Shown here: in pieces, positions 28,273 to 56,918 of the stretch | How the letters are laid out: each line of letters starts with the position of its first letter | How positions within the stretch are numbered: the first letter of the stretch is position 1 | NCBI RefSeq assembly: GCF_037126435.1 | Contig: NZ_CP147020.1 | Span: forward strand, 558,001 to 622,000 | DNA length: 64,000 bases | Direction: 5' to 3' | Source of the DNA: Bernardetia sp. ABR2-2B | Lineage (GTDB): Bacteria > Bacteroidota > Bacteroidia > Cytophagales > Bernardetiaceae | The notes under the pieces: generated by a model | Seen by the model: only the letters and a program-made list of their open reading frames with translations | Database searches by the model: none | What the model was told of the DNA's origin: nothing | Made by a program: the position numbers and the translations under genes

Positions 28273-31095
28273 ATGACTACGCAACCAGAAGCATTACTTG
28301 AAAACGAACTCATAGCACAGTTAGAAAATGAATTGCGTTATGAGCGTGTCAAAATAAAAGACGAAGCTGCTCTTATTGTTAATCTAAAAAAACAGTTAGA
28401 GAAGCATAATAATTTGTCTTTATCTGAAAAGGAATTTGCTCAAATCTTGAATCATTTGAGAAAAGGAAATTCGTTTGAGAAAGCTAAAACGTTGCGTGAT
28501 AAAGTTCAGTACAAAAAAGATGACGGTAGTACCTATTATTTGGAATTACTCAACCTAGAACATTGGTGTCAAAATGAATTTCAAGTAACTAGCCAAGTTA
28601 CTATGAAAGGCACACGTACTAATCGTTATGATGTTACTTTACTCATTAATGGATTGCCATTAGTGAGTATTGAACTCAAAAAACGAGGTTTAGAGTTAAA
28701 AGAAGCCTTCAAACAAAATATACGTTATACAGCCAAGACTTTTCCAGCAGGATATGGCTTGTTTCAATATGTCCAGTTATTTATCATCAGTAATGGAGTG
28801 AATACAAAGTATTATGCTCACAATCGTGTCAATAAACAGGAGTTCAAACAGACTTTTTATTGGAATGATAAAGACAACAAAAAAATATCAAATCTTAATG
28901 ATTTTGCAGAGGTGTTTTTAGAGCCGTGTCATATCTCTAAAATGATAACTAAATATGTTGTTTTGAATGAAACTGAAAAAATGTTGATGGTACTTCGTCC
29001 TTATCAATATTATGCAACAGAAGCTATCATTAATCAAGTCAAAAACAACGATAAAAACGGTTATATTTGGCATACAACAGGGTCAGGCAAAACCCTAACT
29101 TCTTATAAAGCAAGTCAGATTCTGACACATCTACCAAAGGTTCACAAGGTACTTTTTGTAGTAGATAGAAAAGACTTAGATTATCAGACTATCAAAGAAT
29201 TTAATAGTTTTAGTAGTGGAAGTATTGACGGAACAAGTGATACAAAAACATTAGTAAAACAGCTTACAGATGATACTCCTCTCATTGTTACGACCATTCA
29301 AAAACTAAATACAGCAATCAGTAAGAAAAGGTATTTAAGTCAAGTAGAATCGTTACAAGACAAAAAGATAGTTTTTATTTTTGACGAATGCCACCGTAGT
29401 CAGTTTGGAGAAACTCACAAACGAATTACAAAGTTTTTTACAAATTCTCAATTATTTGGTTTCACAGGAACACCAATTTTTGCAGATAATGCCGTCAGAA
29501 ATACACAAGGAAAACGAACTACCAAAGATTTATTTGATGAATGTTTGCACAAATACGTCATCACAAATGCAATCCGTGATGAAAATGTATTGAAGTTTTC
29601 AGTAGAATACATTAACACCGTCAAGAAAAAAGAGGATATTCAAGACATAAATGTAGAAGACATTGACAAAGCTGAAGTGATGGAAGCTCCTCAACGATTA
29701 GAGAATGTAGTTGATTATATCATCGCTAATCACAACCGAAAAACCCACGGAAAAAGGTTTACAGCTATTTTCTGTACTCCTAATATCAAGACACTCATTA
29801 AGTATTATGATATTTTACAAGAAAAGAAAGAAGCTGGAGAACACGACTTGCGAATAGGTACTATTTTTTCTTATGGAGCAAATAATGAAGTAGATTCTGA
29901 AGAGGAAGACGAAGCAAACTTTGAAGCCTACGACGATGATACTTATACTTCTGAACGAGATAAATTAGATACCTATATTGGTCATTATAATCAAATGTTT
30001 GGTACAAACTATTCTACAAAAGATAGTCAGACTTTTTACAACTATTACAACGATATTTCCAAACGAGTAAAGAATAAGCAAGTAGATATTTTGCTAGTTG
30101 TCAGTATGTTTCTGACTGGTTTTGATAGTAAAAGTCTTAATACTTTATATGTAGATAAAAACCTCAAACATCACGGACTAATACAAGCCTACTCACGTAC
30201 AAATCGTATTTTAGATGAAGTCAAATCACAAGGAAATATTGTTGTTTTCCGTAATCTAAAAAAGGCTACTGATGATGCTATTGCTCTTTTTTCTAACCCA
30301 AAGGCAAAAGAAGAGATTTTATTAGAACCGTATGAGGATTATATCGAAAAGTTCAATGAAGCTCATTCTAAACTAACCAACATTACGCCTACTCACGAAA
30401 GCGTAGATGATTTAGTAACCGAAGAAGACGAACTGGAATTTGTAAAAGCATTTAGGGAGCTAATGCGAGTTAAAAACGTACTAGAGAGCTTCACAGAGTT
30501 CAAGTATGAAGATATAGAAATGGAAGAGCAGACTTTTAGTGATTTCCAAAGTAAATATTTAGACTTGTACGATAAAGTCAAAACAAGCACGTACAAAGAA
30601 AAAGTATCTATCCTTGACGATATAGATTTTGAAATTGAGTTAATGCACAGGGACGAGATAAATGTAGCTTACATTTTACGTTTATTAGGAGAGCTTAAAG
30701 ATACCAAAACACCAAAAGAAAGAGCTAAGAAAGAAAAAGCCATTTTGGACACTCTTTCAAGCGAGGTTGAGTTACGTAGCAAACGTACTCTAATTGAGAA
30801 GTTTATGAGCCAACATCTACCAATGATTCAAGATAGTGAGGACATAGAAGAAAGATTTGATTTGTTCATTAGTGAAGAGAAAAAGAAAACATTTGATTTA
30901 CTAGCTCAAGAAGAGAATCTTGACCCTGTAAAATTAGAAACTCTAATCACTAATTACTTATTTATGGGTAAAACTCCTCAACGCAATGATATTATCGGAG
31001 CAGTAAACGGAGTTGTAGGACTGAAAGAGCGCAAAACCATTGGCGAACGAATTATGGATAGAATCAATGATTTTGTTGATACTTATGAGAAATAA
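28273..31095 (+). CDS. hsdR: Type I restriction endonuclease subunit HsdR
   Basis: The 940-residue motor-nuclease subunit cuts unmodified DNA after ATP-driven translocation. The PD-(D/E)xK nuclease core is at LVSIELKKRG (about residue 134), Walker A at HTTGSGKTLTS (about 268), the DEAD-type box at FIFDECHRSQ (about 370), and helicase motifs GFTGTPIF and QAYSRTNRIL follow. Length is normal and no frameshift is seen. It is separated from hsdS by the three-gene toxin-antitoxin-chaperone-like insert but on the same strand and closely spaced. Confidence 0.95.
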   Translation: MTTQPEALLENELIAQLENELRYERVKIKDEAALIVNLKKQLEKHNNLSLSEKEFAQILNHLRKGNSFEKAKTLRDKVQYKKDDGSTYYLELLNLEHWCQNEFQVTSQVTMKGTRTNRYDVTLLINGLPLVSIELKKRGLELKEAFKQNIRYTAKTFPAGYGLFQYVQLFIISNGVNTKYYAHNRVNKQEFKQTFYWNDKDNKKISNLNDFAEVFLEPCHISKMITKYVVLNETEKMLMVLRPYQYYATEAIINQVKNNDKNGYIWHTTGSGKTLTSYKASQILTHLPKVHKVLFVVDRKDLDYQTIKEFNSFSSGSIDGTSDTKTLVKQLTDDTPLIVTTIQKLNTAISKKRYLSQVESLQDKKIVFIFDECHRSQFGETHKRITKFFTNSQLFGFTGTPIFADNAVRNTQGKRTTKDLFDECLHKYVITNAIRDENVLKFSVEYINTVKKKEDIQDINVEDIDKAEVMEAPQRLENVVDYIIANHNRKTHGKRFTAIFCTPNIKTLIKYYDILQEKKEAGEHDLRIGTIFSYGANNEVDSEEEDEANFEAYDDDTYTSERDKLDTYIGHYNQMFGTNYSTKDSQTFYNYYNDISKRVKNKQVDILLVVSMFLTGFDSKSLNTLYVDKNLKHHGLIQAYSRTNRILDEVKSQGNIVVFRNLKKATDDAIALFSNPKAKEEILLEPYEDYIEKFNEAHSKLTNITPTHESVDDLVTEEDELEFVKAFRELMRVKNVLESFTEFKYEDIEMEEQTFSDFQSKYLDLYDKVKTSTYKEKVSILDDIDFEIELMHRDEINVAYILRLLGELKDTKTPKERAKKEKAILDTLSSEVELRSKRTLIEKFMSQHLPMIQDSEDIEERFDLFISEEKKKTFDLLAQEENLDPVKLETLITNYLFMGKTPQRNDIIGAVNGVVGLKERKTIGERIMDRINDFVDTYEK

Positions 31096-35269: not shown

Positions 35270-36004
35270 ATGATTAGGAACGATTATTTTGATGACGATA
35301 CTCCTACCGATGAGCCACACGAACTAAACGGAAGAAGACGCAGACGTAGAAAACGTAAAAAACGTAGTAGTCGTAGCACTAGAAGACGAAGACGTAAGGC
35401 ACGAAAGAAAGCACGAAAAACCAAACGCAAGACCCGTAGGTCAAAACGTCGTACAAGAAGACGTAAAAAAGGTGGTTTTTTCAAGCGAGTATGGCGAGGT
35501 TTCAAACGTTTTAATCCTGCGACAATAGCTATACGAAATGGTATTTTGGCAGCAGCCAAATTAGACCTCAAAAAGATGAGTTCTAGGTTGCGATATGGGT
35601 ATCTGACATCTACCCAAGCGAAACGTTTAGGGGTAGATATGACCAAACACCAAAAAATCAAGCGTGCGCTTTCCAAACTTGAACGCAAGTTCAAAAAGCT
35701 CGGTGGACGAACACGAAACCTAAAGAAAGCAATCCTCAAAGGTCGTGGCAACAGGGACAGAAAAGTACCACTCTCTGGGTTCTCCTCCGACGATATATTC
35801 GTTCCTAATATTGCTAATGAAGAGCTAGGCGAAGTAGCAGCAGCTACGGTCATTGCAGCAGCAACACCTGTTTTAGTTGCCCTACTCAAAATGCTTAGTA
35901 AAGCTGGTGTCAGAACTGAACAAGATATGTATCCAGAAGAACAGTATGACGACTATGGCTACCAAGAAGAATATGAAGAGGAAGGGGGATATTATGACGA
36001 ATAA
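35270..36004 (+). CDS. Protamine-like Arg/Lys-rich protein with conserved core
   Basis: The 244-residue protein has three parts: an acidic start (residues 1-20), an extreme Arg/Lys block (residues 22-68, NGRRRRRRKRKKRSSRSTRR and onward), a structured basic domain of about 95 residues (FKRFNPATIAIRNGILAAAK, LRYGYLTSTQAKRLGVDMTK), then a hydrophobic helix and an acidic Tyr/Glu tail. The block resembles protamines and viral core proteins that condense DNA, so packaging or core condensation is likely. It overlaps the next gene by 11 bases. The codons are mostly AGA/CGT/AAA, in keeping with neighbours. Confidence 0.6.
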   Translation: MIRNDYFDDDTPTDEPHELNGRRRRRRKRKKRSSRSTRRRRRKARKKARKTKRKTRRSKRRTRRRKKGGFFKRVWRGFKRFNPATIAIRNGILAAAKLDLKKMSSRLRYGYLTSTQAKRLGVDMTKHQKIKRALSKLERKFKKLGGRTRNLKKAILKGRGNRDRKVPLSGFSSDDIFVPNIANEELGEVAAATVIAAATPVLVALLKMLSKAGVRTEQDMYPEEQYDDYGYQEEYEEEGGYYDE

Positions 36005-36495: not shown

Positions 36496-37080
36496 ATGCT
36501 ACTACGCAAGTATAGACCTTTACCAGATTCTAAGGTAGAATATATTGTAATTCATACCTCTGCAAGTCCACAAAAATATACATGGCAATGGCTACTTCAT
36601 TTCTTTCTCAACATTTTGAATTGGAGTGTAGCAGGCTATCACGTTTTTATTGAAGAAACAGGCTTAGTAAAAAGACTTGTGCCTCATGGTAAACAATCTA
36701 ACGGTGTAAAAGCCTTTAGAGCTAAAGATATTTTTATCAGTAATCGCAACGCAATACATATTTGTTGGGAAGGTGGTATTGATAAAAATGGAGAGCCAAC
36801 AGATAATCGTACAGAAATTCAAGAGTTGGAGCTTATTCGTGTTTTAGAATGGTATCTATGGAAATATCCAAATGCTAAAGTTCTAGGACATAATCAAGTA
36901 GCTTTAAAATATTGCCCTTGCTTTAATGTCATTGAATGGGCAAGAAAGATAGAATACACAGATTTACACACACAAAATCGTCGCATAGGCATTCCAGAGG
37001 AACGCATTTATAAAGGCGACAATTTCAAAGTTTTAAGTTACCATTTCGGATATGATAGCAAACGGAAAACGTCAGCTTAA
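36496..37080 (+). CDS. N-acetylmuramoyl-L-alanine amidase (T7-lysozyme type)
   Basis: The 194-residue protein is an Amidase_2/PGRP-fold enzyme that cleaves the bond between MurNAc and L-Ala in peptidoglycan. Zinc ligands are visible: His in YIVIHTSASP (about residue 20), His in LGHNQVALKYCPCF (about 134) and Cys in the same block (about 143). No signal peptide is present, so it needs a holin or acts from the virion. It overlaps the next gene by 29 bases. A hydrophobic segment (WLLHFFLNILNWSVAG) may bind membrane. Confidence 0.85.
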   Translation: MLLRKYRPLPDSKVEYIVIHTSASPQKYTWQWLLHFFLNILNWSVAGYHVFIEETGLVKRLVPHGKQSNGVKAFRAKDIFISNRNAIHICWEGGIDKNGEPTDNRTEIQELELIRVLEWYLWKYPNAKVLGHNQVALKYCPCFNVIEWARKIEYTDLHTQNRRIGIPEERIYKGDNFKVLSYHFGYDSKRKTSA

Positions 37081-39187
37081 ATCTGGCAAACGATACGACC
37101 ATCTGATTCCGAAACCCAATTTTCAAAACACAAAACTTTCAGATTTAATTGAAGTAGGATTTACCGTTAAATCAATGAAAAACATCGTTCGTGCTACCCA
37201 CACGGACGTTACCAAATTAGCACAAGTCCTCAAAGGACAAACGATAACAGAGACGTGTTCAAACATCTTTCATTTTGTTTACAATCATATTCAATATGTA
37301 AAGGACAAAACAGGGATTGAAGAAATACGAACACCTGCTAGAATTTGGGCAGACCGTAAGGGAGATTGTGATTGTTACAGCACACTTATAGGAGCAATTC
37401 TATATAGCTTGAAAATTCCTTTTGCCTTTCGAATAACCAAATACTCTTTAGACTGGCAACACGTTTACATTATCGTTTATAATCAAAACGCCCCCAATCG
37501 CAAAGAACTCAAAACTTTCCTAGATGAAGAAACAGGAGAGGAATATGAAAAAGTAGTTCGTACCAACAAGCCAAAAGGCTACAATATCATTGACCCAGTT
37601 GTTGATGATGACGACTATGAAGTAGAATTTACTGATAAACAAGACCATAAGATGAGTACACTAATGCTTTCTGGGATAGATGACGATGTTATTGATGATT
37701 ACGGAACAACCACAGTTGAGGAAGATTTAGGCGATTTGGGTCGTAGAAAAAGACGAAGACGCAAGAAAAGACGAGCCAAAAGAAAAAAGAAGAAAAAAAG
37801 AGGTGGTTTACTCAACCGATTCAGAAAGAAACGTAAGGCACGTCGTAGTAAGCGAAAAAAGAAAAAAGCAGCCAAGCGAACAGCTAGGAGTGCTAGAATA
37901 GGTCTTACAAAAAAGTCTCTCAATGACCTTATTACAGCCTATAAAACGAATCGTTCGGTACTAAAAGATAAAACACGTCAAGCTGTTTTTAAACAGTTTT
38001 TGGCAAGAGCTAAAAGAGACAAGAGTTATAAAGCAGAACTACAACGCATTTCTACTTCTACTCAAACTCGTAAAATATGGGAATCAATCTTGAAGGATTA
38101 TACTTTCAAAAAAATATATAACGAGTATAAAAAAAATACAGATTCAACAGCTACAAAAGGTAAAAAAAGAGGACTGTTTAAACGTTTTCGCAGAAAGAAA
38201 AGAGGCAGAAAGAAGAAGAAGCGTGGTGGTATTTTTAACCGACTTCGCAGGAAGAATAAAGGCAAGAAAAAACGTGGTGGTATCTTCTCTAAGCTTAAAA
38301 ACAAGATAAAGGAGAGAAAGAAGAAACGTAAAGTAAGGCGTAAGAAAAAGAGAGCTGATAAAGCTAAAAATGGTAAAACTAACTTCTTACAACGTTGGAA
38401 AAACAGACGTAAAAAACGTAGAAACACTAAACGTATCAAGAGAGATGCGAAGAGACAGGTAAAAAATACGAAAAAACAAACACCTGTTGTTACAAGGGAC
38501 AAAATCAATCCTATCAAAATAGACCATCAAAATGACATCGTAACAGATGATTTCAACTTAGATGATTTTGACACTGATTCTACTAACACAACCTCAAAAG
38601 GAGGAGCAGGAAAAAACTGGTTTGAAGATGATGGAGAAACGTGGAATAGTGAAGGAGACTGGGGAGCTGATAGTCCAGAAGTTACTACGCAAAAAAATGA
38701 TACTTCAACTTCAGAAGAAAAGGAAAATGATATTTTCTTTGATACTTCAGAAATTGAAAAAGGCATTGATGACGATTTAGATTTTGATATGCAACAATCA
38801 TCAAAAGAGGTAGAAGCTGCAACAAAAAACCTTACTAAAAATCTACCAATGCTCAAAGATGACTTTGCAGCCATCATAGATGATGAAGATGGACTTTTAG
38901 ATGAAGGAGATGACTTTGCCGATGCTAAATTTGACGAACTAGATGAGTTTGATGGCGAAGAGCCAAAAGAGCCTAATATCTTTCAAAAAGGTATTGAGTG
39001 GGCAAAGGAAAATCCTAAAGCAGCCACAGGAGTAGCGATTGGTACAACAGTCATTATTGGTGGAACAGTATATTTCCTCACACGCCCTAAGAAACCAACT
39101 TCCTTTCAACCTTATAAGCCACGTAGTAGAGGTAAAAAAGGTAAAAAGTCTTTAAACGGAACAGCATCTTTTGCAGGATTCCAATAA
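37052..39187 (+). CDS. Transglutaminase-fold protease fused to basic and acidic regions
   Basis: The 711-residue protein begins with a transglutaminase-like cysteine peptidase domain (residues 40-190): catalytic Cys in KGDCDCYST (about 105), His in WQHVYIIV (about 136), Asp in IIDPVVDDDD (about 188). Residues 230-275 and 370-470 are dense Lys/Arg blocks (RRKKRRAKRKKKKKRGG) separated by a helical domain. The region from about 490 is Asp/Glu-rich. A membrane span lies near residues 665-682 (ATGVAIGTTVIIGGTVYFLT), and the end reads KSLNGTASFAGFQ. A virion maturation protease or core protein is proposed. Confidence 0.6.
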   Translation: MIANGKRQLKSGKRYDHLIPKPNFQNTKLSDLIEVGFTVKSMKNIVRATHTDVTKLAQVLKGQTITETCSNIFHFVYNHIQYVKDKTGIEEIRTPARIWADRKGDCDCYSTLIGAILYSLKIPFAFRITKYSLDWQHVYIIVYNQNAPNRKELKTFLDEETGEEYEKVVRTNKPKGYNIIDPVVDDDDYEVEFTDKQDHKMSTLMLSGIDDDVIDDYGTTTVEEDLGDLGRRKRRRRKKRRAKRKKKKKRGGLLNRFRKKRKARRSKRKKKKAAKRTARSARIGLTKKSLNDLITAYKTNRSVLKDKTRQAVFKQFLARAKRDKSYKAELQRISTSTQTRKIWESILKDYTFKKIYNEYKKNTDSTATKGKKRGLFKRFRRKKRGRKKKKRGGIFNRLRRKNKGKKKRGGIFSKLKNKIKERKKKRKVRRKKKRADKAKNGKTNFLQRWKNRRKKRRNTKRIKRDAKRQVKNTKKQTPVVTRDKINPIKIDHQNDIVTDDFNLDDFDTDSTNTTSKGGAGKNWFEDDGETWNSEGDWGADSPEVTTQKNDTSTSEEKENDIFFDTSEIEKGIDDDLDFDMQQSSKEVEAATKNLTKNLPMLKDDFAAIIDDEDGLLDEGDDFADAKFDELDEFDGEEPKEPNIFQKGIEWAKENPKAATGVAIGTTVIIGGTVYFLTRPKKPTSFQPYKPRSRGKKGKKSLNGTASFAGFQ

Positions 39188-39225: not shown

Positions 39226-39274
39226 TTTGCACACCCACGCACCTCTTTTTAGGATTATTTATTTTAAAAAAGCT

Positions 39275-40243
39275 ATGAGCAAAAAATCTAAAAACGAAAT
39301 TCAAAAACTTTTTACGGAAAAAACAGAAAAAAATGTAAAAGCATCAGCCGTACAAGCAGTAGCTCACGCAGTCTGTTCCGTAGCAGGAGGTGCATTTGGT
39401 GCAACCATTGGGAAACCCTCATTATTAGCATCTCTTCCTATCCTCTTTGCAGGAAAGTATTTTGAACAAGACTATATAACTACTCTAGGTGCAGGAATGG
39501 CTGCAAATGTTACGACACCTAAATCTGTAAACGGAATAGATGGTATAGAAGGAATAAAAGATGCCTTTGACCCTAAAGCAGCCTTAGAACGACTTAAAGG
39601 ATATGCTTCAGAAGTTAAACACGCAGCTTATTTAGGCGAAGCACCAGAAATTAATTCATATTCACACTACATTTCTGATGATGATTCAGATGTGTATCAA
39701 CTCCCCCAACACGAAATGAGCCAATTAGCGCAACACATGGAAGGTCTAGCTGATAACCTAGATGACTTTGATGCCTACTTAGAAGGCGAAGACGAAGAAG
39801 ATGGCATTGTCCTCTCTGATGTATTACAAGGTCTGAAAGGTAATTTAGAGGCAATTAGAGACACCGTACATACTAATCCAGACCTTTTAGAAGAAGGTAG
39901 TTTTGATGAGGAAGCAATGGAAGTTATTGAAGGATTAGCAGGTATTATTAATGGTGCATCAATGGCAGGTCTGAATGGACATGATGATGACTTCTTAGAT
40001 GAAGTTGCTGATGGTGTGGGTGCATTAGAAGGTCTCTTAGGAATTGATGACGATGACGATGACGACGATGATGATGATGATGACTTAGAAGGCTTTGACG
40101 ATGACGATTATGATGGAGAAGACGAAGATGATGAAGACTTTGACGAAGCTGCCTATGACAATCATGAAGAAGGCATTGAAGGCTTTGACGATGATGATGA
40201 TATGTATTTAGAAGGTACACACGATGAAAATGACATCTTTTAG
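39275..40243 (+). CDS. Membrane-associated Asp-rich protein
   Basis: I start at MSKKSKNEIQKLF, 322 residues. The N-terminal 30 residues are basic, then a Gly/Ala-rich hydrophobic region (AVCSVAGGAFGATIGKPSLL, residues 37-75) looks membrane-inserted. The C-terminal half is extremely acidic, with a run of ten Asp (DDDDDDDDDD near residue 264) and several DDD/DED clusters. Motifs VNGIDGIEG (about residue 84) and MAGLNG (about 229) belong to the recurrent set in this module. An acidic scaffold or DNA-mimic that counters the basic core proteins is conceivable. Confidence 0.55.
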   Translation: MSKKSKNEIQKLFTEKTEKNVKASAVQAVAHAVCSVAGGAFGATIGKPSLLASLPILFAGKYFEQDYITTLGAGMAANVTTPKSVNGIDGIEGIKDAFDPKAALERLKGYASEVKHAAYLGEAPEINSYSHYISDDDSDVYQLPQHEMSQLAQHMEGLADNLDDFDAYLEGEDEEDGIVLSDVLQGLKGNLEAIRDTVHTNPDLLEEGSFDEEAMEVIEGLAGIINGASMAGLNGHDDDFLDEVADGVGALEGLLGIDDDDDDDDDDDDDLEGFDDDDYDGEDEDDEDFDEAAYDNHEEGIEGFDDDDDMYLEGTHDENDIF

Positions 40244-40330: not shown

Positions 40331-41017
40331 ATGGACGAATTAATGGGACTTGAAGGGCGTGCAGCTATGAAAGCACGTAAAGCTGGACGCAGAGCTAAAA
40401 ACCCTATGCGTATCGCTACTCGCAAAGCACAAGAGTATGCAGAAACTAACTCATCTCGTATTGCATTTATGCAGTATATGGAGAGTAAAGAGTTTGATAC
40501 AAATCTAGCTCGTAAAATCACGAATAACGATGCTCGTCTTGTAGATGAAGGTATCTATTCTGTAAAAAAGTTAGAAAAAGTAACAAAATTCTTTAATTCA
40601 GCTGACCAGAAAGATTTTGGTATTACTAATCTTGATGGTTCTCGCTTACCAAAAGGCGAAGCAATGGTAGCTACTGGCGTTGTATTACTTCGTGCAGAAA
40701 TTACAGCAGCAGGTAGTACGCCAACACCAGACGAAATTAAACAAGCCGTTTTCGGAGCTTGGAAAGGTATCAAAGGAGATGCACTAGCAGTAATTACGGC
40801 AAAAGCACATAAGAAAGAAATCGTGTCAGAACTTCCTTGTTATGTTTTTCTGAATGATGCAAACACACAAGTGTCTTTTCATCAGCTTGAAAACCCTCGT
40901 CTTATCAAAGATGAAGGCGAAATTGAGCTTGAACTCACTATGCCAACAATGACAGGAGTTACAGCAAACACATATGTTTGTGCCATCTTAATTGGCACTC
41001 GTGCTATCCCTAGATAG
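40331..41017 (+). CDS. Candidate major capsid protein
   Basis: The start MDELMGLEGRAAMKARKAGR gives 228 residues; 14 further codons upstream belong to a hairpin leader. The N-terminal 35 residues are a basic arm, followed by a helical part (IAFMQYMESKEFDTNLARKI) and a beta-rich C-terminal two-thirds (EIVSELPCYVFLNDANTQVS, GEIELELTMPTMTGVTANTY). The gene has its own leader hairpin and is followed at once by the strongest terminator in the module, as for highly expressed capsid genes. The C-terminal strand pattern is shared in spirit with the small beta proteins downstream. The capsid call is an inference. Confidence 0.4.
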   Translation: MDELMGLEGRAAMKARKAGRRAKNPMRIATRKAQEYAETNSSRIAFMQYMESKEFDTNLARKITNNDARLVDEGIYSVKKLEKVTKFFNSADQKDFGITNLDGSRLPKGEAMVATGVVLLRAEITAAGSTPTPDEIKQAVFGAWKGIKGDALAVITAKAHKKEIVSELPCYVFLNDANTQVSFHQLENPRLIKDEGEIELELTMPTMTGVTANTYVCAILIGTRAIPR

Positions 41018-45872: not shown

Positions 45873-46676
45873 ATGGCACTAGGAAGCAGAGCAGCCACTC
45901 AACGCAATAATAACTTTTTAAATATTCTAATTCACACAGGAATAAAAAAAGGGTTTTTACCTTCTACTTTCAAAAAAGTAATTGGAAGAAATACAAATCC
46001 TTTCATTTGGCAAGAAGCATATAACGATGGATTAGATAACGGTTTTGAGTATGCTAAATATGGACAAGCTGATACAGATTTTTTCAAAATGTATTGGAAG
46101 CCACAATACAGACAGATTATGAATAATCATACTGCAATTTGGCGAAGTCGTCCGTATAGAAATTTTGAAGGACGTGCAAAGATAATTGTTAGAGTATTGG
46201 TTCAAAAGACACCATCTTTAATTGCTACATTCTCTAAAATAATGGTTCATATTCTTAGAAATAAAATTGAACTTAGTACAGAAGCACAGCGAATTATTGC
46301 ACAAGTTACTGGCGTGGATTTGAATGTAACTACACAAAGTCAAAACCAAGAAGTCATACCTCAATGCCAATGTGTTAAAACTGGAATGAATGGACTTAGT
46401 GGTGGACAAGTAGCAGAGCCAAATAAAGTAAACTGGGGAAATGTAGCCAAGACAGTTTTATTAGGAGGTGCAGCAGGTTTCGGAGTTCACAAAGCAATTG
46501 ATTATTTCACAAGTACGCCAAAAAAATCAACTGGATTATCTGGACTTTCGGCAGGACAACGCAAAGGCTATAATAAACTCAAACAAATTACAGCAAGAGC
46601 TAGAAAAATTCAAGATAAAAGTCCACGCAAAAAATGGACGACTTGTATTAGTCAAGCTGCTAAAGAATTGAAGTAA
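45873..46676 (+). CDS. Structural-module protein with two GLSG-type motifs
   Basis: The 267-residue protein has a basic N-terminal domain (ILIHTGIKKGFLPSTFKKVI), a helical middle, then MNGLSGGQ (about residue 172), a hydrophobic stretch (VLLGGAAGFGVHKAIDYF) and a second motif STGLSGLSAGQRKG (about 220) leading into a basic C-terminal domain. The motifs bracket the membrane-like segment, as expected if they were processing sites. No family is recognised. Confidence 0.5.
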   Translation: MALGSRAATQRNNNFLNILIHTGIKKGFLPSTFKKVIGRNTNPFIWQEAYNDGLDNGFEYAKYGQADTDFFKMYWKPQYRQIMNNHTAIWRSRPYRNFEGRAKIIVRVLVQKTPSLIATFSKIMVHILRNKIELSTEAQRIIAQVTGVDLNVTTQSQNQEVIPQCQCVKTGMNGLSGGQVAEPNKVNWGNVAKTVLLGGAAGFGVHKAIDYFTSTPKKSTGLSGLSAGQRKGYNKLKQITARARKIQDKSPRKKWTTCISQAAKELK

Positions 46677-46839: not shown

Positions 46840-47493
46840 ATGAGCTATTCCGAAGGAAATCGAAAAGGAAAAAAAATACTAAATGCTTACTTTACTCCAA
46901 AAGAAATATGTGAGCAAATGTGGGAATTAGCAAAAGTTCATGGTTATGATGGTGGAACAGTCTTAGAGCCGTCGGTTGGAACAGGAAATATGATTGTTCA
47001 TGCTCCAAATAAAACAAAAGTTACAGGACTTGAAACAGAAGCAGAATATTTTGAAACTGTTAAAGACCGTTTCCCTACTTCTACTTTTTATAATGTTTTC
47101 TTCGAACAAGTTTTTTTACAGCCAGAACGCTATCGTAGTGATTACGAAGGCAACACCACTTGGCTCAAAGGCTATCCTTTTGATTTGATAATCGGAAATC
47201 CTCCGTATGGAAAATTTACTGGACGTTGGGCCTCTTACTTTCCACGTAGAGGAGAACCCAAATTTCAGAATTATGAATATTTCTTTATGTGGTATGGATT
47301 GAAGTTACTTAAAAAAGGTGGATTGCTTGTTTATATCATTCCTCAAAATTTCCTCAACACAGGATTCAATAGCTACAAAAAACAAAAAGAAGCTATCCTA
47401 AAAGTAGCAACTTTAGTAGATGCCTATGAGATGGGTAGTATTTTCAAAGATACCAAAGTACCTACTCATATCATCGTACTCAAAAAGAAATAA
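46840..47493 (+). CDS. Adenine-N6 DNA methyltransferase
   Basis: The 217-residue enzyme has the SAM-binding motif VLEPSVGTGNM (about residue 47) and the catalytic NPPY in LIIGNPPYGKF (about 124), typical of gamma-class N6-adenine methyltransferases. Earlier YFTPKEICEQMW resembles the start of type I and Eco57I-like enzymes. No target-recognition domain is attached. It is followed by a small gene and then the giant SNF2 helicase. A split DarB-like methylase/helicase protecting injected DNA is the suggested role. Confidence 0.85.
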   Translation: MSYSEGNRKGKKILNAYFTPKEICEQMWELAKVHGYDGGTVLEPSVGTGNMIVHAPNKTKVTGLETEAEYFETVKDRFPTSTFYNVFFEQVFLQPERYRSDYEGNTTWLKGYPFDLIIGNPPYGKFTGRWASYFPRRGEPKFQNYEYFFMWYGLKLLKKGGLLVYIIPQNFLNTGFNSYKKQKEAILKVATLVDAYEMGSIFKDTKVPTHIIVLKKK

Positions 47494-47498
47494 TTTTT

Positions 47499-47696
47499 AT
47501 GGAAAAAGAAGTTAGAGAAGCAATAAAAAGAGCATTGGATAAATGCGATGGAACAAAAACCCCTCAAATATGTGCTTTAAAAAGTACAAAAGAAGGCTAT
47601 TTAAAAGTGGAATCTGATATTATTAATATTATGATTAAAAATAATCTCACTCCTTCTGAAGCTATTGCTCACGTAGAAAACTATCTCAATGACTAA
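47499..47696 (+). CDS. Small helical protein, unknown
   Basis: The 65-residue protein (EVREAIKRALDKCDGTKTPQ...) is soluble and helical and ends LTPSEAIAHVENYLND. It begins 5 bases after the methyltransferase stop and overlaps the helicase gene by 8 bases. It may be an adaptor between the two enzymes. No family is recognised. Confidence 0.5.
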   Translation: MEKEVREAIKRALDKCDGTKTPQICALKSTKEGYLKVESDIINIMIKNNLTPSEAIAHVENYLND

Positions 47697-50600
47697 TTAT
47701 TATTCTGAACGTATCGGACTTATAGAACATATTTCTGCACAAATGCGAAGGTATGGACAAGATAAGGATAAAGCAACCTCACAAGATTATAAGGCATTGC
47801 AATATGGTTTTGTGTCTTCTTTTGTTCGTTCAGAATATGACCAGTTTGAAGAGTTAGAAAGATATGATAAATCAGTTGAGCCAACTCAAGAGGAACTTTG
47901 CTCGTATGGTAATTTCTTCAATAAATACCCTAATAAAACAGTAGATAAAAAATTTCTTTCCACTTCTTTTTACTTCTCAGTTCAGTCAAAAGCTACACTC
48001 ACAGAAAGTATAGAGATGCTCAAACGAGAAATTGAGAAACTCAAAAAAACAAAATCTACTCCACCTATATCAAAAGTTAAAATGAAAATGAAAGCCAAAG
48101 CCTTACAATTACGTCGTAAACGTGCCTTGGCACTCCTAAAAATGGAATCAAATGGACTAAGTGGCTTAGACGGTGTTTTAGGTTCTTTAGGAGAAGTTGA
48201 TAAAAAAGAAATTTCTAAAAACAAGAGTAGATTAGCAAGTCTCATTGCCAAAGAAAATACGAATAAGAAGCTAATAAATAGCTTTGATGATAACTTCAAA
48301 AGATATAACAAAGGCATTACTGAAGGCGAAATTAAAGCGTGGGTTTGGTACAAACAAAGTCAAGGTTCGCCCATGTACGGTTGGGAAAAATACTTTCTTA
48401 AAGCTACTGGAAAAGTAGAAGAGGTATTAGTAACAACAAAAGCTACTATCATCAAAGACAATCATTTTAGAGATGAAGGAACAGTTCCTTCTGATTCAAT
48501 TTTAGGCAAGCCTAGTCGTTTTACGAATGAATACGATAAAAAGGTTTATCAAATTTATACGGATAAAGAAGGAAATAAAAAATTTGTAAACAAATCTCAT
48601 GTCAAATTACAGCGTACAAGTGCAACGGCTGACCCAAAAGAACTAGATAAGTTTGTAAGAGAAGGATTGTTGTTTTTTGGAGAAGCAGACCTTTTACCTT
48701 TACCTTTATTTACCTTTGGCAATATCTATGACAAGATACTTGCACTAGAAAAACAAAAAGAACACATTATCAAAGAATACGGACAATCTGTATATGATGA
48801 TCATGTCCGTGTTTTAAACGAAGCTAAACCTCGTCCATTATCTGTACTAAATCCAGACGCAAGTAAGCGTTTGAAAATATTACCTTTTTCTGAATTTGCT
48901 TTAAAATATAAAGTAGAAGAAGATGCTGAAGGTAATCCAGTAGAAGAGGATTTGAATGAATTTTTCAAAACTTGGTTAAATGTAAATGCAAATTTAATTG
49001 AAGTTGATGGTATTTCGGCTCGTAATATTATCCATGTTTATTTAGAAGGTGGGCGTAAATCAAAGGAAGAAAAAGAATTTTTAGAAAAGCATACACGAGA
49101 AGAAGGAGATAGATTATTTGACATTTTTCTCAATACAGGCATATCAATAAATGACCAAAAAAGGTTGGATATGTCTTGGAATCGACAATACAATGGTTTT
49201 GCAAAATTAAACTATAAACGTATTCCGATTGGACTAGCTACCTGTGCTTTATTTAAAGGAATGCCTTTAGCTTTCATGGAAGCACAACGTGAAGCGATTG
49301 CATTTATTGATGCTGTTGGTTCTGGTTGTTTAGCTTATGATGTAGGTGTGGGTAAAACAATGGCTGCTATTTTAATTGCAGCACAAAACATTCAGAATGG
49401 AACGTACAAACGTCCTGTAATTGTTGTTCCAAAACCTACTTATCAAAAGTGGATTAATGAAATTGTAGGCTATACAGACAAAGAAGGAAACTTTATAGAA
49501 GGTATTCTTTCTCATTTAGACATAAAAATCAATTCCCTTGGGAATATGGGTAAGAGATATATTAATCCTAAAACAGTAAATAAACAACTAGAAGAAGGAA
49601 GTATATCAATTATCACTTATGAAGGTTTTGCAAAAATTGGTTTTTCTGAACAATTAGAAGTAGAACTATTTGATTCTCTCGCAAAAATACTATTACATGT
49701 TGATGCTGATGATAATGATTCAGCAAGAGAAAAAGAAAAGCAGTTTGAAAAATTGAGATACCTTATTGGACGTAGTGCAAAAGGCACTATTGCTGATATT
49801 GATGTACTCGGTTTTGATGCTATTATCATTGACGAAGCTCATAATTTTAGAAATGTATTTTCGTATGTTCCTGCACAAGAAGGAACAAAAAGATATAGTC
49901 TAAATGGACAAACTTCTGGTAGAGCGCAACTCGCTTTTATGCTTTGTAATTACATTCAGACCAAGCACGGTGGAAATATTGTGTTACTGACTGCAACACC
50001 TTTCAATAATAGTCCTTTAGAGGTTTATTCCATGTTGTCTCTTATTGCTCTCAATAAAATGGAAAAAGCAGGTATCAGTTCTATTACTGAATTTATGGAA
50101 ACATTTATTCAAGAAACGGCTGAATATGTAGTATCTTCTACCAATAAACTTACTCAAAGACCTGTTGTAAAGTCATTTCAAAATAAACGTTCATTACAAT
50201 CGTTGGTATTCAATTATATCAATTTTAAATCTGGAGAAGATGCAGGAGTTCGTCGTCCTGTTAAAATAAATTTACCTAGACTTTCATTCAAAGATGCTAA
50301 TGGAAATACTGTCCAATTACCACCAAAAGAACAAATAGTCACCTATTTAAAAATGAATGAGATGCAAGAGATGTATCAAAAAGAAGCGATACGAGTTGCA
50401 GAAAGTGGAAAAGGACTTAAAGAACGTGGAGCAAATACACTTCGTGGAATGAGCTTGAGCCGTAAAAATGCCTTCAGTCCGTTTATGGTAAGCAAAGAAG
50501 AGCCAGAAGATTTTGAAGATTTCGTTATTAATAGTCCAAAGATTTTATACACAATGGAGTGTATCAAATCAGTACAAGCACACCACAAAAAGACAAATAC

Positions 50601-51948
50601 ACCTCTATCTGGACAGGTTATTTACTCAAATATAGGCAAAGATTATTTTCCACTCATCAAGGAATACTTAGAGAAAAGATTAGGCTTTAAAACTGGTGTT
50701 ACTTTTAACAACAGAAAGTTTGATGAGGTAGAAATGATAACAGGTGGTGGAAATGCAGATAAGAAAGAAGCTATCAAAGATGCGTTTCTTGCAGGAGTGG
50801 TAAAAGTGGTCATTGGTTCTTCTACAATTCGTGAAGGAATTGATTTGCAAAAAAGAGGAAGCGTACTCTACAACCTATACCCAGATTTCAATCCTACTGA
50901 TGTTAGACAACTTGAAGGTAGAATTTGGCGACAAGGAAATTGGTTTGGTTATGTACGTGTTGTTATGCCACTTGTTCAAAATAGTATGGACGTGTTTATT
51001 TTCCAAAAATTAGAGGAGAAATCGGCTCGTATAAATGATATTTGGTCAAAAGCTGATGACGATACAAATGTGCTTGACCAAGAGAGTTTAAACCCAGAAG
51101 CTATCAAATATGCTCTTTTTACAGATTTGAATAAACTTACAGGTTTGAGAATTGAGGAAATTCGAAAAGATATTTCAAAATCTAAAGTAAAATTAGAAAA
51201 TGAATTAGATACACTTTTGAAAATAAATGCTGCACAATCAGTAGCTGAAGAATCGAAAAAAAGAGTGCTAGAAAAAGTATATTCTCTGAAACTAAAACTA
51301 ATTGACTTCTTAGAATTACATAGAAAGACAGAAAGTAAAGATAAAGACTTTAAGAAAAAGATTGATAAATATAAAAAGCTAGTTGATAGCATTAATGACT
51401 TTGATGGTGTAGATAATAAAGCACTCGTAAAGTTAGGAATCAAAATACAAAAAATGGATGACCATTCATATAGTTATTTTGTTTACCAATCAAGTGATAG
51501 GTTAGGACTTTTTAGAGCTTCATTAACTGTAATCAATCAATCTGCTGACATTGTAGCAAGGTATGATAATTTAGAACAAGCTATTAGTTCAATAAAAAAT
51601 TCTTTAAGAAAACAACAGGCAGAACTTGAAGAAACAGCAACACCAGAATATCAAATCAAAATTTGGGCAGAAATTCGTGATGAGAAAAAGAAACTCAATA
51701 TCACAGGTCGTTATCCACAAGAAGCAGCCAAAGACTTTGCTAGTCTAAACTACCTACTAAACTATAAAATGGCTGATGTAGATGATGTAAATGGAAACCC
51801 ATTACCTACTGATAAACCAAAATCAGCTAAGTCAGTCAAGTTAATTCCTCCGACTGAAAACAAAACTAAAATTAAACTCAAAATGAAGGCAAAAGCACTT
51901 CAATTACGTCGTAAACGTGCCTTAGCTTTACTTAAATTAGCATCATAA
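47689..51948 (+). CDS. Giant SNF2-type helicase with duplicated basic peptide
   Basis: The 1419-residue protein has an SNF2/DEAD motor in its middle: Walker A AYDVGVGKTMA (about 550), DEAH in IIIDEAHNF (about 712), LLTATPFNN (about 766) and the arginine-finger block GRIWRQGNW (about 1080). A 19-residue basic peptide (KMKAKALQLRRKRALALLK) occurs at residues 133-151 and again at 1398-1416, identical in protein but with eight synonymous codon differences. The first copy is followed by SNGLSGLDG. C-terminal coiled coils lie at 1170-1320. Relatives of such motors accompany methylases in DarB-like anti-restriction proteins. Confidence 0.8.
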   Translation: MTNYYSERIGLIEHISAQMRRYGQDKDKATSQDYKALQYGFVSSFVRSEYDQFEELERYDKSVEPTQEELCSYGNFFNKYPNKTVDKKFLSTSFYFSVQSKATLTESIEMLKREIEKLKKTKSTPPISKVKMKMKAKALQLRRKRALALLKMESNGLSGLDGVLGSLGEVDKKEISKNKSRLASLIAKENTNKKLINSFDDNFKRYNKGITEGEIKAWVWYKQSQGSPMYGWEKYFLKATGKVEEVLVTTKATIIKDNHFRDEGTVPSDSILGKPSRFTNEYDKKVYQIYTDKEGNKKFVNKSHVKLQRTSATADPKELDKFVREGLLFFGEADLLPLPLFTFGNIYDKILALEKQKEHIIKEYGQSVYDDHVRVLNEAKPRPLSVLNPDASKRLKILPFSEFALKYKVEEDAEGNPVEEDLNEFFKTWLNVNANLIEVDGISARNIIHVYLEGGRKSKEEKEFLEKHTREEGDRLFDIFLNTGISINDQKRLDMSWNRQYNGFAKLNYKRIPIGLATCALFKGMPLAFMEAQREAIAFIDAVGSGCLAYDVGVGKTMAAILIAAQNIQNGTYKRPVIVVPKPTYQKWINEIVGYTDKEGNFIEGILSHLDIKINSLGNMGKRYINPKTVNKQLEEGSISIITYEGFAKIGFSEQLEVELFDSLAKILLHVDADDNDSAREKEKQFEKLRYLIGRSAKGTIADIDVLGFDAIIIDEAHNFRNVFSYVPAQEGTKRYSLNGQTSGRAQLAFMLCNYIQTKHGGNIVLLTATPFNNSPLEVYSMLSLIALNKMEKAGISSITEFMETFIQETAEYVVSSTNKLTQRPVVKSFQNKRSLQSLVFNYINFKSGEDAGVRRPVKINLPRLSFKDANGNTVQLPPKEQIVTYLKMNEMQEMYQKEAIRVAESGKGLKERGANTLRGMSLSRKNAFSPFMVSKEEPEDFEDFVINSPKILYTMECIKSVQAHHKKTNTPLSGQVIYSNIGKDYFPLIKEYLEKRLGFKTGVTFNNRKFDEVEMITGGGNADKKEAIKDAFLAGVVKVVIGSSTIREGIDLQKRGSVLYNLYPDFNPTDVRQLEGRIWRQGNWFGYVRVVMPLVQNSMDVFIFQKLEEKSARINDIWSKADDDTNVLDQESLNPEAIKYALFTDLNKLTGLRIEEIRKDISKSKVKLENELDTLLKINAAQSVAEESKKRVLEKVYSLKLKLIDFLELHRKTESKDKDFKKKIDKYKKLVDSINDFDGVDNKALVKLGIKIQKMDDHSYSYFVYQSSDRLGLFRASLTVINQSADIVARYDNLEQAISSIKNSLRKQQAELEETATPEYQIKIWAEIRDEKKKLNITGRYPQEAAKDFASLNYLLNYKMADVDDVNGNPLPTDKPKSAKSVKLIPPTENKTKIKLKMKAKALQLRRKRALALLKLAS

Positions 51949-53519
51949 TGACTTATCAAAACTACTTAGACAACTATAAAAATGTCAATTTTAGCACAGC
52001 TAATTTTGATAAAGAAATTATAAATGTATTCAAGGAAGGGCATTCTATGATTACCGAGCTTGCAGAAAATGGTATGTTAGAAGATACTGACTTTAAACAA
52101 GATGTAAAGGAACATTATGATATGTTTACTCAAATGCTCAAAAAAATAGGTAGTTCTACATCTAAAAAAAAGCCGACAAAGAAAGCTCCAGTAAAAAAAA
52201 CTACCACTCGTAGAAAATCTACTTCAAAGAAAACAACTACAAGAAGAAAAACACCAGCTAAAAAAACAACAACTAGAAGAAATCTTCCAAGTCTTGTAAA
52301 AAACGCCAAAAAAGTTACTACCAAAAGAAGTAGCCCAATGGAAAGTGAGTTGGGCCTGGCCCTAATTCGTAGGTTCTTAAATATGATAGGGAAAAAGAAA
52401 ACACGTAATAGTGTACAACTTCTTTTAAATCGTATCAATAAAGCAGCCGTAAACAAGGAAATTCGCTTGAAAAGTCAGTATGCAGAACCATTGAAGTTTG
52501 TAGGAGAAAGTCTTGCTAATGCTTTAAACACTTCTTATGCTACTTTTAAGTTCAAACTAGAAAAGCAAGGAGCAGAACTACTAGAACCCTACATGAACGA
52601 TAAAGAAGCGACTTCTATTCGCCTGTTACGCCAGTTCTACAATGCCCAAAACAAGAAGTTCACAGAAAGATACGAGAAACTCATTGAGAACTTAAAGAAA
52701 GTAGATAAAGACGATGCTTTTTATGTAGATGTGAAAGCAGCTATCAAAACACTTCAGACGGCAAGACAAAACAGAAAAGTGATTAAAGCCACACGAGCAA
52801 CACTAAAAGGATTAGACGGAATTTGTAAAAAAAAAAGTAGTCTAAACGGATTAGATGGTGCAGGTTTACACCCAGCCATTGCAGGAGCAGTTGGTGGTGC
52901 AGCTTCTGGTATTGTAGGTGGTGCAGTTTATCGTGCATTATCTGGACAAGATATTATTGATTCCACTTATGAATCAATTCCTTTGCCTAGTAAGTATAGG
53001 GGAATAGGTCTTGACGACATTCCTTACAATGCTTCTATTCTGATGTATGCGTATTCTGGATATGGAAAATCTACACTGGCATTAGAGTTTGCACAAGAAT
53101 TCTCAGCATTTGGTAGGACTGCTTATGTTTCCTACGAAGAATTTACTTCAGACGGACGTGCAACAGGTGGACTTAGAAATAGATTAAAGAGAATGAAGGA
53201 CAATATAGGTATATCTAAAAATGTGGATTACTTTTCATCTATGGAAGCATTTGATATTAATGATTACCAATTCATCTTCATTGATTCTATTGATGATGCA
53301 GATATGACCATAAAGGACTGGGAAGAACTTAGAGCAATGTACCCAACGAAATTTTTTGTCTTGATTGCACAGGTTACTAAAAATGGAATGTTCAGAGGAA
53401 GTAACAGATGGGCGCACAAGGTAGATGTTGTATTTGAGTTTCCAAAAATTGGAGTTGCAGTTGGTAGAAAAAGATACGGAACAGGTACTTATGACTTCTT
53501 TAATCCAAAATACGCTTAG
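51948..53519 (+). CDS. Membrane-anchored RecA/RadA-like ATPase with histone-like region
   Basis: The 523-residue protein has a helical start, then a Lys/Thr/Arg-rich H1-like stretch (residues 63-110, KKTTTRRKSTSKKTTTRRKT), a helical domain, two LDG motifs (GLDG about 287 and SLNGLDGAG about 297), a Gly/Ala-rich hydrophobic segment (AIAGAVGGAASGIVGGAVYR) and a C-terminal RecA-type ATPase: Walker A SGYGKSTLA (about 372), Walker B FIFIDSID (about 443), and HKVDVVFEF near the end as in RadA/DnaB-like folds. As the only ATPase besides the helicase it is the candidate genome-packaging motor. Confidence 0.65.
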   Translation: MTYQNYLDNYKNVNFSTANFDKEIINVFKEGHSMITELAENGMLEDTDFKQDVKEHYDMFTQMLKKIGSSTSKKKPTKKAPVKKTTTRRKSTSKKTTTRRKTPAKKTTTRRNLPSLVKNAKKVTTKRSSPMESELGLALIRRFLNMIGKKKTRNSVQLLLNRINKAAVNKEIRLKSQYAEPLKFVGESLANALNTSYATFKFKLEKQGAELLEPYMNDKEATSIRLLRQFYNAQNKKFTERYEKLIENLKKVDKDDAFYVDVKAAIKTLQTARQNRKVIKATRATLKGLDGICKKKSSLNGLDGAGLHPAIAGAVGGAASGIVGGAVYRALSGQDIIDSTYESIPLPSKYRGIGLDDIPYNASILMYAYSGYGKSTLALEFAQEFSAFGRTAYVSYEEFTSDGRATGGLRNRLKRMKDNIGISKNVDYFSSMEAFDINDYQFIFIDSIDDADMTIKDWEELRAMYPTKFFVLIAQVTKNGMFRGSNRWAHKVDVVFEFPKIGVAVGRKRYGTGTYDFFNPKYA

Positions 53520-54309: not shown

Positions 54310-55200
54310 ATGGGAATCATAAAACAAACTTCTGATAATTTTATCATTGATAACGTTAGTGAGCTTATTACTCCTGCAAGTGTAAGACAGGTAAATGATG
54401 TCATTGATGCACAAGTAGTAGGAATAGAAACTTCTATCACTACAATAAATGAAAGTATCACTACACTTTCTAGCAATACTATCCCTACTGGTGGCTTGGA
54501 GGGTCAAATTCTAGCTAAACGTTCTAACACAGATAACGATGTAGAATGGATAGCTCCCCCTTCTGGTGGTGGAAACTTTTTACCCCTTTCTGGTGGAGCT
54601 ATGACTGGAGCTATTGATATGCAGGAGAATATCATTTCAAACTTCAAAAAACTTGAAAATACAAAAGTTGATGGGTATTCAACTACAAATATGTTTTTTG
54701 AAGTTGATGAAGATGAGTATGATTTTATATTTGGCTCGACAAATACTGCAAATTTTGATTTTAGAAATGTTGCAGGTGTAATTTCAAGAGATAGTCAAGG
54801 AAATATTCAAGGTAACGCTGACTTTTATTTTGGTATATATACAAAAAACAAAGCTAATAATAATTACACTTCATTTAATCTAAATACAAACACCTACGAA
54901 GATTCTGAAGACAAACCACTTAAATATGCAGCAGATTACTCTGCAAATTACACAGCTAGAAGTTTAGTCGATAAAGGTTTTTTTGATGGCAAAGTAAAGC
55001 TATTTAAACAAACAACCTCTACACCACCAAATACTACTGTACCGATTGAGTTTGCACACCCTTACGGAGATGACTTGCCTATTTATAAACTGTACAAAGG
55101 CACACAAGAAGTATCATTTACAGCAACTCTAAGTACAGGTAGTATAAACTTTGGAAATATAGGAAGTGGTTCATACACACTTGTAGCCTATTTTATTTAA
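54310..55200 (+). CDS. Receptor-binding fibre/spike-like protein
   Basis: The 296-residue protein carries LPLSGGAMTGAIDMQENIIS (about residues 96-115), the LPLSGG-MTG-I repeat typical of phage tail-fibre and spike proteins, preceded by a helical coiled-coil trunk with SITTINESITTL. A beta-rich C-terminal domain ends GSYTLVAYFI. It lacks any tail-protein neighbour. The probable role is host recognition from the virion surface. Confidence 0.65.
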   Translation: MGIIKQTSDNFIIDNVSELITPASVRQVNDVIDAQVVGIETSITTINESITTLSSNTIPTGGLEGQILAKRSNTDNDVEWIAPPSGGGNFLPLSGGAMTGAIDMQENIISNFKKLENTKVDGYSTTNMFFEVDEDEYDFIFGSTNTANFDFRNVAGVISRDSQGNIQGNADFYFGIYTKNKANNNYTSFNLNTNTYEDSEDKPLKYAADYSANYTARSLVDKGFFDGKVKLFKQTTSTPPNTTVPIEFAHPYGDDLPIYKLYKGTQEVSFTATLSTGSINFGNIGSGSYTLVAYFI

Positions 55201-55757: not shown

Positions 55758-56918
55758 TTACTTATTACGGAACACTCTATCAAATTCATTTTTAACACCC
55801 CAAGTATGTATCATTTTAGCATAAACCTTTTCGGTTGTCTTGATGCTACTATGACCTAGAACTTTTTGTACAACATTTATATCAATACCACTATTTAGGA
55901 AAAATGCTCCTGCTGTATGCTTTCCAAAGTGTGAACGCATGTATTTATCAATTCTTGCCCTATACATACAAATACGGATATTTTGATTATAGGTGTGATT
56001 TGCCGTAGGTGTTGTGTTGTACTCTAGCTTTTTCAAGAGTTCAAGAGCTTCTGGAAGCAAAGGAATATAATGTATTCCATTAGTCTTACCTCGTTTTTGT
56101 AAAATCCACTCCCAGTCGTCAGTTTCAATATGGTTTTTCTTTACATTAAAGTCTTTTAGCTCTCCATAGCTCAAAGAGGTATAACATTGTACTAGAAATA
56201 AATCTCTAGCTAATTCTAAATGCTTTTCTCTTTCAGAAAAGGTTAGTTCTGCAAATCGTTTTAACTCTTCAATATCAAGATAAACGTATTCTCTTTTTTT
56301 GTGTTTTATATTCAGAGAATATTGAGCTACTGCATCTTTTTCTAGTAATTCCATAGAATAACCTAGTTTTACGGCTGCTTTCACTCTAGCTAAAGACTTT
56401 TCTAAGTATTCAGTAGATTTGATTTTTCCACTATCAAGCATAAAGTTTTTGAGTTGCTCCAAGTGCTTGTAATTAAAATGCCTTGCTTCCATATTTAAGT
56501 TACCAATACTTTTTAAGTAAGGTTTGAGCCAGTTTTTCTTAAAATTGTTATAAATAGTTATTGTTCCTCTCGCAACTCCAACACTTCGTTTTTCTACCAG
56601 TTTGTCATACAAATCAAGCATTGATATTTGTGGACTTTCTTTTTTTAAATAAAAATCTGCTATCTCTTGTATATGTGAAATTGTAGATTTGTATTGATTG
56701 AATAAATCTGTAAGGTCTGCTCTCAAATTATCTAATCCATCATTGATAGGCTTTGAATTTTGTCCAGAAGCATACTTTTTTTGCCAAAGATGCTCATATA
56801 CTCGTATTCCACTACTTGCTTTCTTTGAACGCATACCGTTGTGTGAAATGTACCAGTAGATAACAGCTAATCCATTCTTACTTTTTTGGTCTTTTCGGAG
56901 GGAAAAAACAACATTCAT
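55758..56918 (-). CDS. Tyrosine recombinase (integrase) of E1
   Basis: The 386-residue enzyme has the Bacteroidota-type arm-binding start (MNVVFSLRKDQKSKNGLAVI), a SAM-like core-binding domain and a C-terminal catalytic domain with the nucleophile Tyr in KTTEKVYAKM (about 368) and LGHSS before it. The usual first Arg is Ser (TSLSYGEL, about 246), as reported for IntDOT, and the second Arg is Lys (HFGKHTAG, about 331). It lies 195 bases from the right att core and points inward. It should integrate and excise the element, alone or with an unseen excisionase. Confidence 0.9.
   Translation of the reverse strand: MNVVFSLRKDQKSKNGLAVIYWYISHNGMRSKKASSGIRVYEHLWQKKYASGQNSKPINDGLDNLRADLTDLFNQYKSTISHIQEIADFYLKKESPQISMLDLYDKLVEKRSVGVARGTITIYNNFKKNWLKPYLKSIGNLNMEARHFNYKHLEQLKNFMLDSGKIKSTEYLEKSLARVKAAVKLGYSMELLEKDAVAQYSLNIKHKKREYVYLDIEELKRFAELTFSEREKHLELARDLFLVQCYTSLSYGELKDFNVKKNHIETDDWEWILQKRGKTNGIHYIPLLPEALELLKKLEYNTTPTANHTYNQNIRICMYRARIDKYMRSHFGKHTAGAFFLNSGIDINVVQKVLGHSSIKTTEKVYAKMIHTWGVKNEFDRVFRNK

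Follow-up and report, generated by a model that had tools for sequence, protein, structure and literature searches.

Element-specific C-terminal tags on a DarB-like helicase and its partner are candidate docking signals in Bacteroidota prophages

Introduction

Encapsulin cargo is loaded into its shell through short C-terminal peptides, and the receptor is the shell protein. Internal proteins of phage T4 carry a short N-terminal capsid targeting sequence that by itself can direct a foreign protein to the capsid (PMC9024508). In phage P1, DarB, which is believed to counter restriction, has its loading signal in the N-terminal 30 residues, and DdrB is among the listed virion proteins; a common signal on the Dar proteins was suspected and not found, with no consensus among Dar N termini by BLAST (PMC9024508). 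DarB is also among the seeds of the polyvalent proteins, a class of large proteins that phages and conjugative elements deliver, a survey of which covers domains, peptidase processing, and transfer and, in the sections available to us, names no shared terminal tag (PMC5512222). The rules by which phages select the proteins that travel with their DNA have been worked out for few systems. Here, we describe a prophage of Bernardetia sp. ABR2-2B that lies in a 64,000-nucleotide (nt) stretch of contig NZ_CP147020.1 (positions 558,001 to 622,000; here, “the window,” with all positions counted from its first letter) and encodes, at 47689-51948, a DarB-like helicase containing the same 19-residue peptide twice.

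We propose, with a probability of about 0.6, that this peptide is an element-private C-terminal docking tag, carried by a DarB-like antirestriction helicase and a partner protein and read by the NY domain of the next gene's product, a protein that would tether both to viral DNA, most likely for packaging. A literature search of open-licence papers found no report of such a tag in the text available.

Results

A repeated peptide kept by silent codon changes. The 1419-residue product of the helicase open reading frame (ORF) contains KMKAKALQLRRKRALALLK at residues 133-151 and again at residues 1398-1416, as an earlier note on this DNA had pointed out. That note counted at least eight unlike codons; exactly 8 of the 19 differ, by 10 nt in all, every change is silent, and a 23-nt identical run lies midway through both copies. 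Ten random nt changes would be expected to alter ~6.8 residues, and none of 5,000 simulations left every residue unaltered. A 30-residue query against the whole host genome matched three places: both window copies and one site in a second, related prophage, whose helicase is 68% identical and whose own two copies match each other and are unlike those of the window (KLKMKAKALKLLQLQAQAELEL in both places). Judged from sequence, KMKAKALQLRRKRALALLK is an element-specific C-terminal tag and not a conserved peptide: across homologues the peptide itself varies, and what is kept is the mutual match of the two copies.

Split and fused forms. Relatives from other families encode the N-terminal domain of the window protein separately, in a gene immediately upstream of the helicase gene, and each of the two proteins has a matching tag at its C terminus. 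The paired tails read LEAEAVALALELFLLDL and IEVEALALELELALLEI in L033, IAIAKAKAKAIKMRIKLL and LRLAKAKAKALKIKLKLIA in L065, VKLKAKAAKAKLLLLEL and LKLRAKAAKAKLLLLNLN in L070, and LEIAKAKAIAVKIKLKLATKK and IQIAKAKAIAIKIKLKLAKAKLSA in L081, an IMG/VR viral contig. The partner domain can be aligned across 21 elements around the motifs HPEKI-G and TTS--FP. Because this domain is a separate tagged gene in relatives, the best reading of the window protein, from these comparisons, is that two tagged proteins have been fused, with the partner ahead of the helicase; the partner's tag thereby came to lie inside the protein, and that of the helicase is still C-terminal. The tagged cargo is not always homologous: in three elements (L041, L042, and L072), another large protein bears the second tag in place of this partner. 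Pfam matches in these partners are ddrB-ParB (L041), LPD1 (L042), and none (L072); the first two are domains of delivered-protein families and would support a docking tag. The tagged helicase of L041 (L041:9562-14385) also has a Zeta toxin-like kinase domain.

Tags match within elements. The last 35 residues of each helicase were compared with the tails of all ORFs in its locus and with the helicase's own first 400 residues, with a cutoff score of 40. In all 28 tag-type elements with a complete neighborhood, a set that was chosen with the tags already known and that contains closely related elements, the best match in the locus was a neighbor's C terminus or an internal copy and scored at least 40 (42 to 94 in 18 split elements, 71 to 116 in eight fused elements, and 47 and 40 in fused L035 and L039). 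L066, L071/L080, L134, L138, and L121 had no partner or an end missing and were left out, and L034 and L038 lie outside the analyzed set. All seven complete elements obtained out of sample matched, including a fusion with acidic tags from another family (L135). Across 88 IMG/VR loci whose DarB-like helicases are more distant, no partner tail reached 40 (best, 37) and two internal stretches did (both 41); eight loci of another type (L073 to L079 and L137) scored at most 34. Several distant DarB-like helicases of other phages (L087 to L104) share a (Y/F/I)-x-RKSA-type tail, perhaps another tail signal, and the L104 helicase also starts with KKSAL.

The pairing is specific. Over 16 elements (22 minus the near-duplicates L006, L010, L017, L021, L040, and L068, with the G300 pair, whose tails lie on different contigs of a single genome, treated as one element), similarity was 66.9 within versus 28.8 between elements (p 5e-5; 20,000 permutations), and the own partner was best in 13/16 rows and 12/16 columns. 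With the 11 unfused elements only, the values were 63.7 and 28.3, and the own partner was best in nine. When the residues of one tag in the 16 pairs were shuffled, the summed alignment score fell from 1071 to 401 on average (at most 458 in 500 shuffles), so the likeness of the tags exceeds that expected from composition.

The nucleotide differences bear on how the match is maintained. Eight fused pairs differ by 6 to 14 nt, with 0, 0, 0, 0, 1, 1, 1, and 2 residue changes versus 4.3 to 8.6 expected; six of them combine 8 to 14 nt differences with no or one residue change, and the other two have 6 nt and one residue and 9 nt and two residues. In 12 split pairs, residue changes fall below the neutral expectation in 11 (P ≤ 0.021; the exception is L065, P = 0.22), a result that is favored by the choice of these stretches as best local alignments. 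The silent divergence within fused pairs, together with separate genes that bear similar tags despite 17 to 44 nt differences, gives good support to selection on the peptide, as the earlier note argued, over a recent duplication. Concerted evolution, in which gene conversion would keep the copies alike at the DNA level and matching would need no function, could account for the 23-nt identical run of the window copies and for the joint switch of both copies in G003:C63, described below. The six fused pairs with 8 to 14 nt differences, the divergence between separate genes, and an NY domain that switches with the tag and opposes its charge all speak against it, and we consider it quite improbable.

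Most tags alternate polar and nonpolar residues, with a strand-type moment above the helical one in 29/32 (shuffle P ≤ 0.05 in 15/32). A helical amphipathic tag was not supported, as the helical moment reached shuffle P ≤ 0.05 in 0/32. Alternation and likeness would both suit self-association, in which helicase and partner are joined by tags that bind one another or assemble as mixed strands, with no need for a separate receptor. Like-charged tags should repel each other, however, such joining would be superfluous in fused forms, and the charge opposition to the NY domain does not fit; this explanation appears improbable.

Alleles switch together with the NY domain. Seven elements of the genus carry three alleles of a 12-residue cassette: A, QLRRKRALALLK (three elements); B, KLLQLQAQAELE (three); and B′, ELLQLQA[KR]AKLK (one). 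Both ends bear the same allele in 7/7, with one cassette residue differing between the ends in the B element L006 and in the B′ element. In two polylysogenic Bernardetia genomes, the residents all differ in allele (two in G000, A and B; three in G003, A, B, and B′). The closest comparison is between G004 (A) and G003:C63 (B′), in which the N-terminal domain is 99% identical over 110 residues, the helicase core 96% over 1241, and the 40 residues before tag 2 100%, yet both 12-residue cassettes have switched. Between the same two elements, the NY domain is 36% identical over 64 residues versus 97% over 190 for the adjoining middle domain.

The NY domain forms the N terminus of the directly downstream protein (51948-53519). 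AlphaFold2 predicts helices at residues 3-12, 22-40, and 50-67 of this block of ~64 residues (predicted local distance difference test score [pLDDT], 74 to 92), followed by a disordered basic linker, a helical middle, and a RecA/RadA-like ATPase (whole-model pLDDT, 69.1). In 7/7 genus elements, two of which were covered at the N terminus only, the NY domains cluster by tag allele: identity is 75% between the window and G004 (A/A), 39% between the window and G003:C28 (A/B), and 91% between G003:C28 and G000-2 (B/B). Outside this domain, the NY protein follows the element rather than the tag allele. Three elements are limited at the downstream gene: that of L037 spans an edge of the retrieved sequence, L039 lacks one on the same strand, and that of L130 has masked bases. 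The downstream protein is itself likely a fusion; L033 (L033:6944-8185) and L040 (L040:9448-10620) have a shorter NY protein on a gene of its own, followed by an ATPase-like gene, and its tails there (LNGI-C and LNGLNGIC) resemble the middle of the window protein (LKGLDGIC).

Tag and NY charges are opposed. The net charge of the helicase tag correlates negatively with that of the NY domain (r = -0.81, n = 24; this test includes L066, L080, L134, and L138, the last of which is absent from the tree). Since uncorrected helicase windows reach -0.74, we do not trust raw charge correlations. With 22 phylogenetic contrasts computed along the helicase tree, r is -0.72 (p 1.2e-4; -0.82 with unit branches), and the same correction yields -0.64 (n = 20) for the partner's own tag against the NY domain. 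Control values under this correction were -0.32 to +0.38 for 32 helicase windows, -0.54 to +0.52 for 13 other windows of the NY protein, -0.26 to +0.19 for four methylase windows, and -0.01 for the partner domain. The tag changes sign at least three times on the tree.

The same data bear on the binding signal that the earlier note suggested, for DNA, membrane, or capsid. In its simplest form, this would be an unspecific basic tail conserved for charge alone, which the window tag, at +9 over its last 24 residues, would suit. Tags are acidic (-4 to -9) in 12/24 elements, and they match beyond composition. Homologues with other, sometimes acidic tags make a general DNA- or membrane-binding basic peptide very improbable; a targeting role is the part of that suggestion that stands as the best reading.

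Evidence weighing against the proposal. Several observations count against a tag read by the NY domain. Only 15 of the 22 contrasts have the expected sign (four are opposite and three are zero), only two charge reversals are well supported and independent, both concordant and too few for a sign test (p 0.5), and L136 fits poorly (tag, +7; NY domain, -1). Between G004 and G003:C63, the ATPase end of the NY protein also diverges (44% over 190 residues), and the stretch before copy 1 is longer in G003:C63. Because tag 2 adjoins the NY domain, a single recombination tract could carry both; the unlinked part is tag copy 1 only, 3.8 kb away. The earlier note held that scrambling of the peptide in homologues would speak against selection on it, and this is seen in part: the first copies of the fused L035 and L039 are weak, the tag of G058 (L039) had better matches in other elements than in its own, and both copies agree in the other fused forms. 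Against private codes in particular, G1211 has two elements with near-identical tags. Finally, L041, L042, and L072 have matched tags and no recognized NY domain (an NY-like domain was searched for beside L041 and not found), so other receptors may exist.

These last elements, together with the proximity of tag 2 to the NY domain, would suit a targeting signal whose receptor is another virion or secretion component, with the NY domain traveling with tag 2 by linkage only. We regard this as unlikely, if a serious competitor, given that the tree-corrected charge opposition is stronger for the NY domain than for all helicase, other NY-protein, and methylase windows and the partner domain.

Helicase and prophage setting. 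The helicase matches phrog_1685 (1.9e-73), phrog_11801 (7.9e-60), and the DarB-like phrog_10089 (7.5e-31), as well as SNF2-rel_dom (1.3e-17). By these matches, it is a DarB-like SNF2 helicase, with an antirestriction role and virion incorporation predicted. The prophage also encodes an integrase, lysis-type genes, an N6 methylase, and a candidate jelly-roll capsid protein (Table 1). Evidence for the last is weak: its best VIA-align hit (Z = 7.9; SPV1 6oj0_A, a virus jelly-roll) lies below the tool's caution line, other folds are compatible with the VIA list, the top Foldseek rows are furin, and no phage record matched it. With regard to a possible tailless jelly-roll virus, no portal or terminase was found among 20 window proteins scanned with PHROGs (a set that included 28273-31095, outside the element, and left out several small element ORFs), and the scan gave one minor-tail match (9e-4, on 54310-55200). 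Searches of viral contigs found no relative with the window helicase alone and none with an acidic-group profile; a genome-contig scan gave one locus, with the same helicase as G003:C28, and a sampled phylum scan gave only known places (2/395 genomes). No phage record covered 80% of the window helicase, and no plasmid record covered 80% of the L067 helicase.

TABLE 1 Features of the Bernardetia prophage locus in window coordinates
Feature	Position	Strand	Remarks
Candidate jelly-roll capsid protein	40331-41017	+	Weak evidence; AlphaFold2 mean pLDDT 72.8, eight strands
N6-adenine methylase	46840-47493	+	Other half of DarB-like pair, as separate gene; matches methylase part of same PHROGs
N-terminal partner domain	47689-48084	+	Residues 1-132; separate gene in other families
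Tag copy 1, internal	48085-48141	+	Arm KMKAKAL, 48085-48105; 12-codon allele cassette QLRRKRALALLK, 48106-48141
NGLSGLDG junction after copy 1	48151-48174	+	Possible processing site (unproven)
SNF2-type DarB-like helicase core	49315-50937	+	SNF2-rel_dom, residues 543-723; Helicase_C, 1012-1083
Tag copy 2, C-terminal end of helicase	51880-51936	+	Arm, 51880-51900; cassette, 51901-51936
NY domain, three-helix candidate receptor of tags	51948-52139	+	N terminus of directly downstream protein 51948-53519
Disordered Lys/Arg-rich linker	52155-52343	+	Residues 70-132 of downstream protein
RecA/RadA-like ATPase part	52968-53477	+	~Residues 341-510 of downstream protein
Integrase near prophage end	55758-56918	-	Element ~34.2-56.9 kb by synteny with second prophage

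Cleavage at NGLSGLDG was considered, given that this motif comes after copy 1 and has similar counterparts in two other prophage proteins; it is unproven, as GLG-type stretches also lie near the start of several unfused helicases. The GL(S/D)G-type motifs, possible processing sites, occur in three neighboring prophage proteins (at 46389-46406, at 48151-48174, and in the 51948-53519 protein), twice near Cys. Two further prophage proteins (35270-36004 and 37052-39187) have long Arg/Lys-rich, protamine-like stretches, the second with a transglutaminase-like domain as well. Just before the capsid candidate, 39227-40243 encodes a scaffold-like protein whose C-terminal part is very Asp-rich; this protein is present in L004 and L006 too, and a similar one precedes the capsid relative in L037. 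A type I restriction R subunit (28273-31095) is encoded a few kilobases from this prophage with its antirestriction-like helicase.

Discussion

From these patterns, we infer a docking step. Two cargoes, the DarB-like antirestriction helicase and the partner with the HPEKI-G domain, end in the same tag, and in the Bernardetia elements the two are joined in a single protein. The three-helix NY domain would read both tags by binding them, while the very basic linker and RecA-like part of its protein would sit on viral DNA; the NY protein would so tether both cargoes to that DNA, most likely for joint packaging. Delivered with the genome into the next host, the DarB-like helicase and the methylase could counter restriction of the incoming DNA. 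Tag and receptor would coevolve, so that alleles switch together. More broadly, and tentatively, at somewhat below even odds, Bacteroidota viruses may use private lock-and-key loading codes, in which a cassette-like C-terminal tag on the proteins for delivery and its cognate receptor, a three-helix domain borne by a scaffold bound to DNA, diversify as a unit, with charge reversals, so that coresident prophages load their own cargo.

If tag and receptor are interchangeable alleles, swaps would test cargo selection directly. Such a pair would also allow cargo prediction from sequence in uncharacterized viruses and could provide orthogonal protein-loading signals.

This locus resembles the P1 Dar system in its DarB-like helicase and methylase and in the short signal proposed for loading, and one tagged partner has ddrB-ParB; unlike the N-terminal P1 signal, the tags here are C-terminal, common to two proteins, and different in each element. 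The matched tags lie at C termini, or internally in fused forms, and not at N termini as in P1 and T4 (no search for a further N-terminal signal was made). The T4 capsid targeting sequence is likewise short, but the tags differ from it in being C-terminal, or internal by fusion, and allelic. The ddrB-ParB and LPD1 domains of tagged partners recall the polyvalent proteins. Encapsulin peptides share the short C-terminal form, whereas the candidate receptor here is a three-helix domain on a separate protein. Cargo targeting is of an already known kind, and it is the receptor and the allele structure that look new here.

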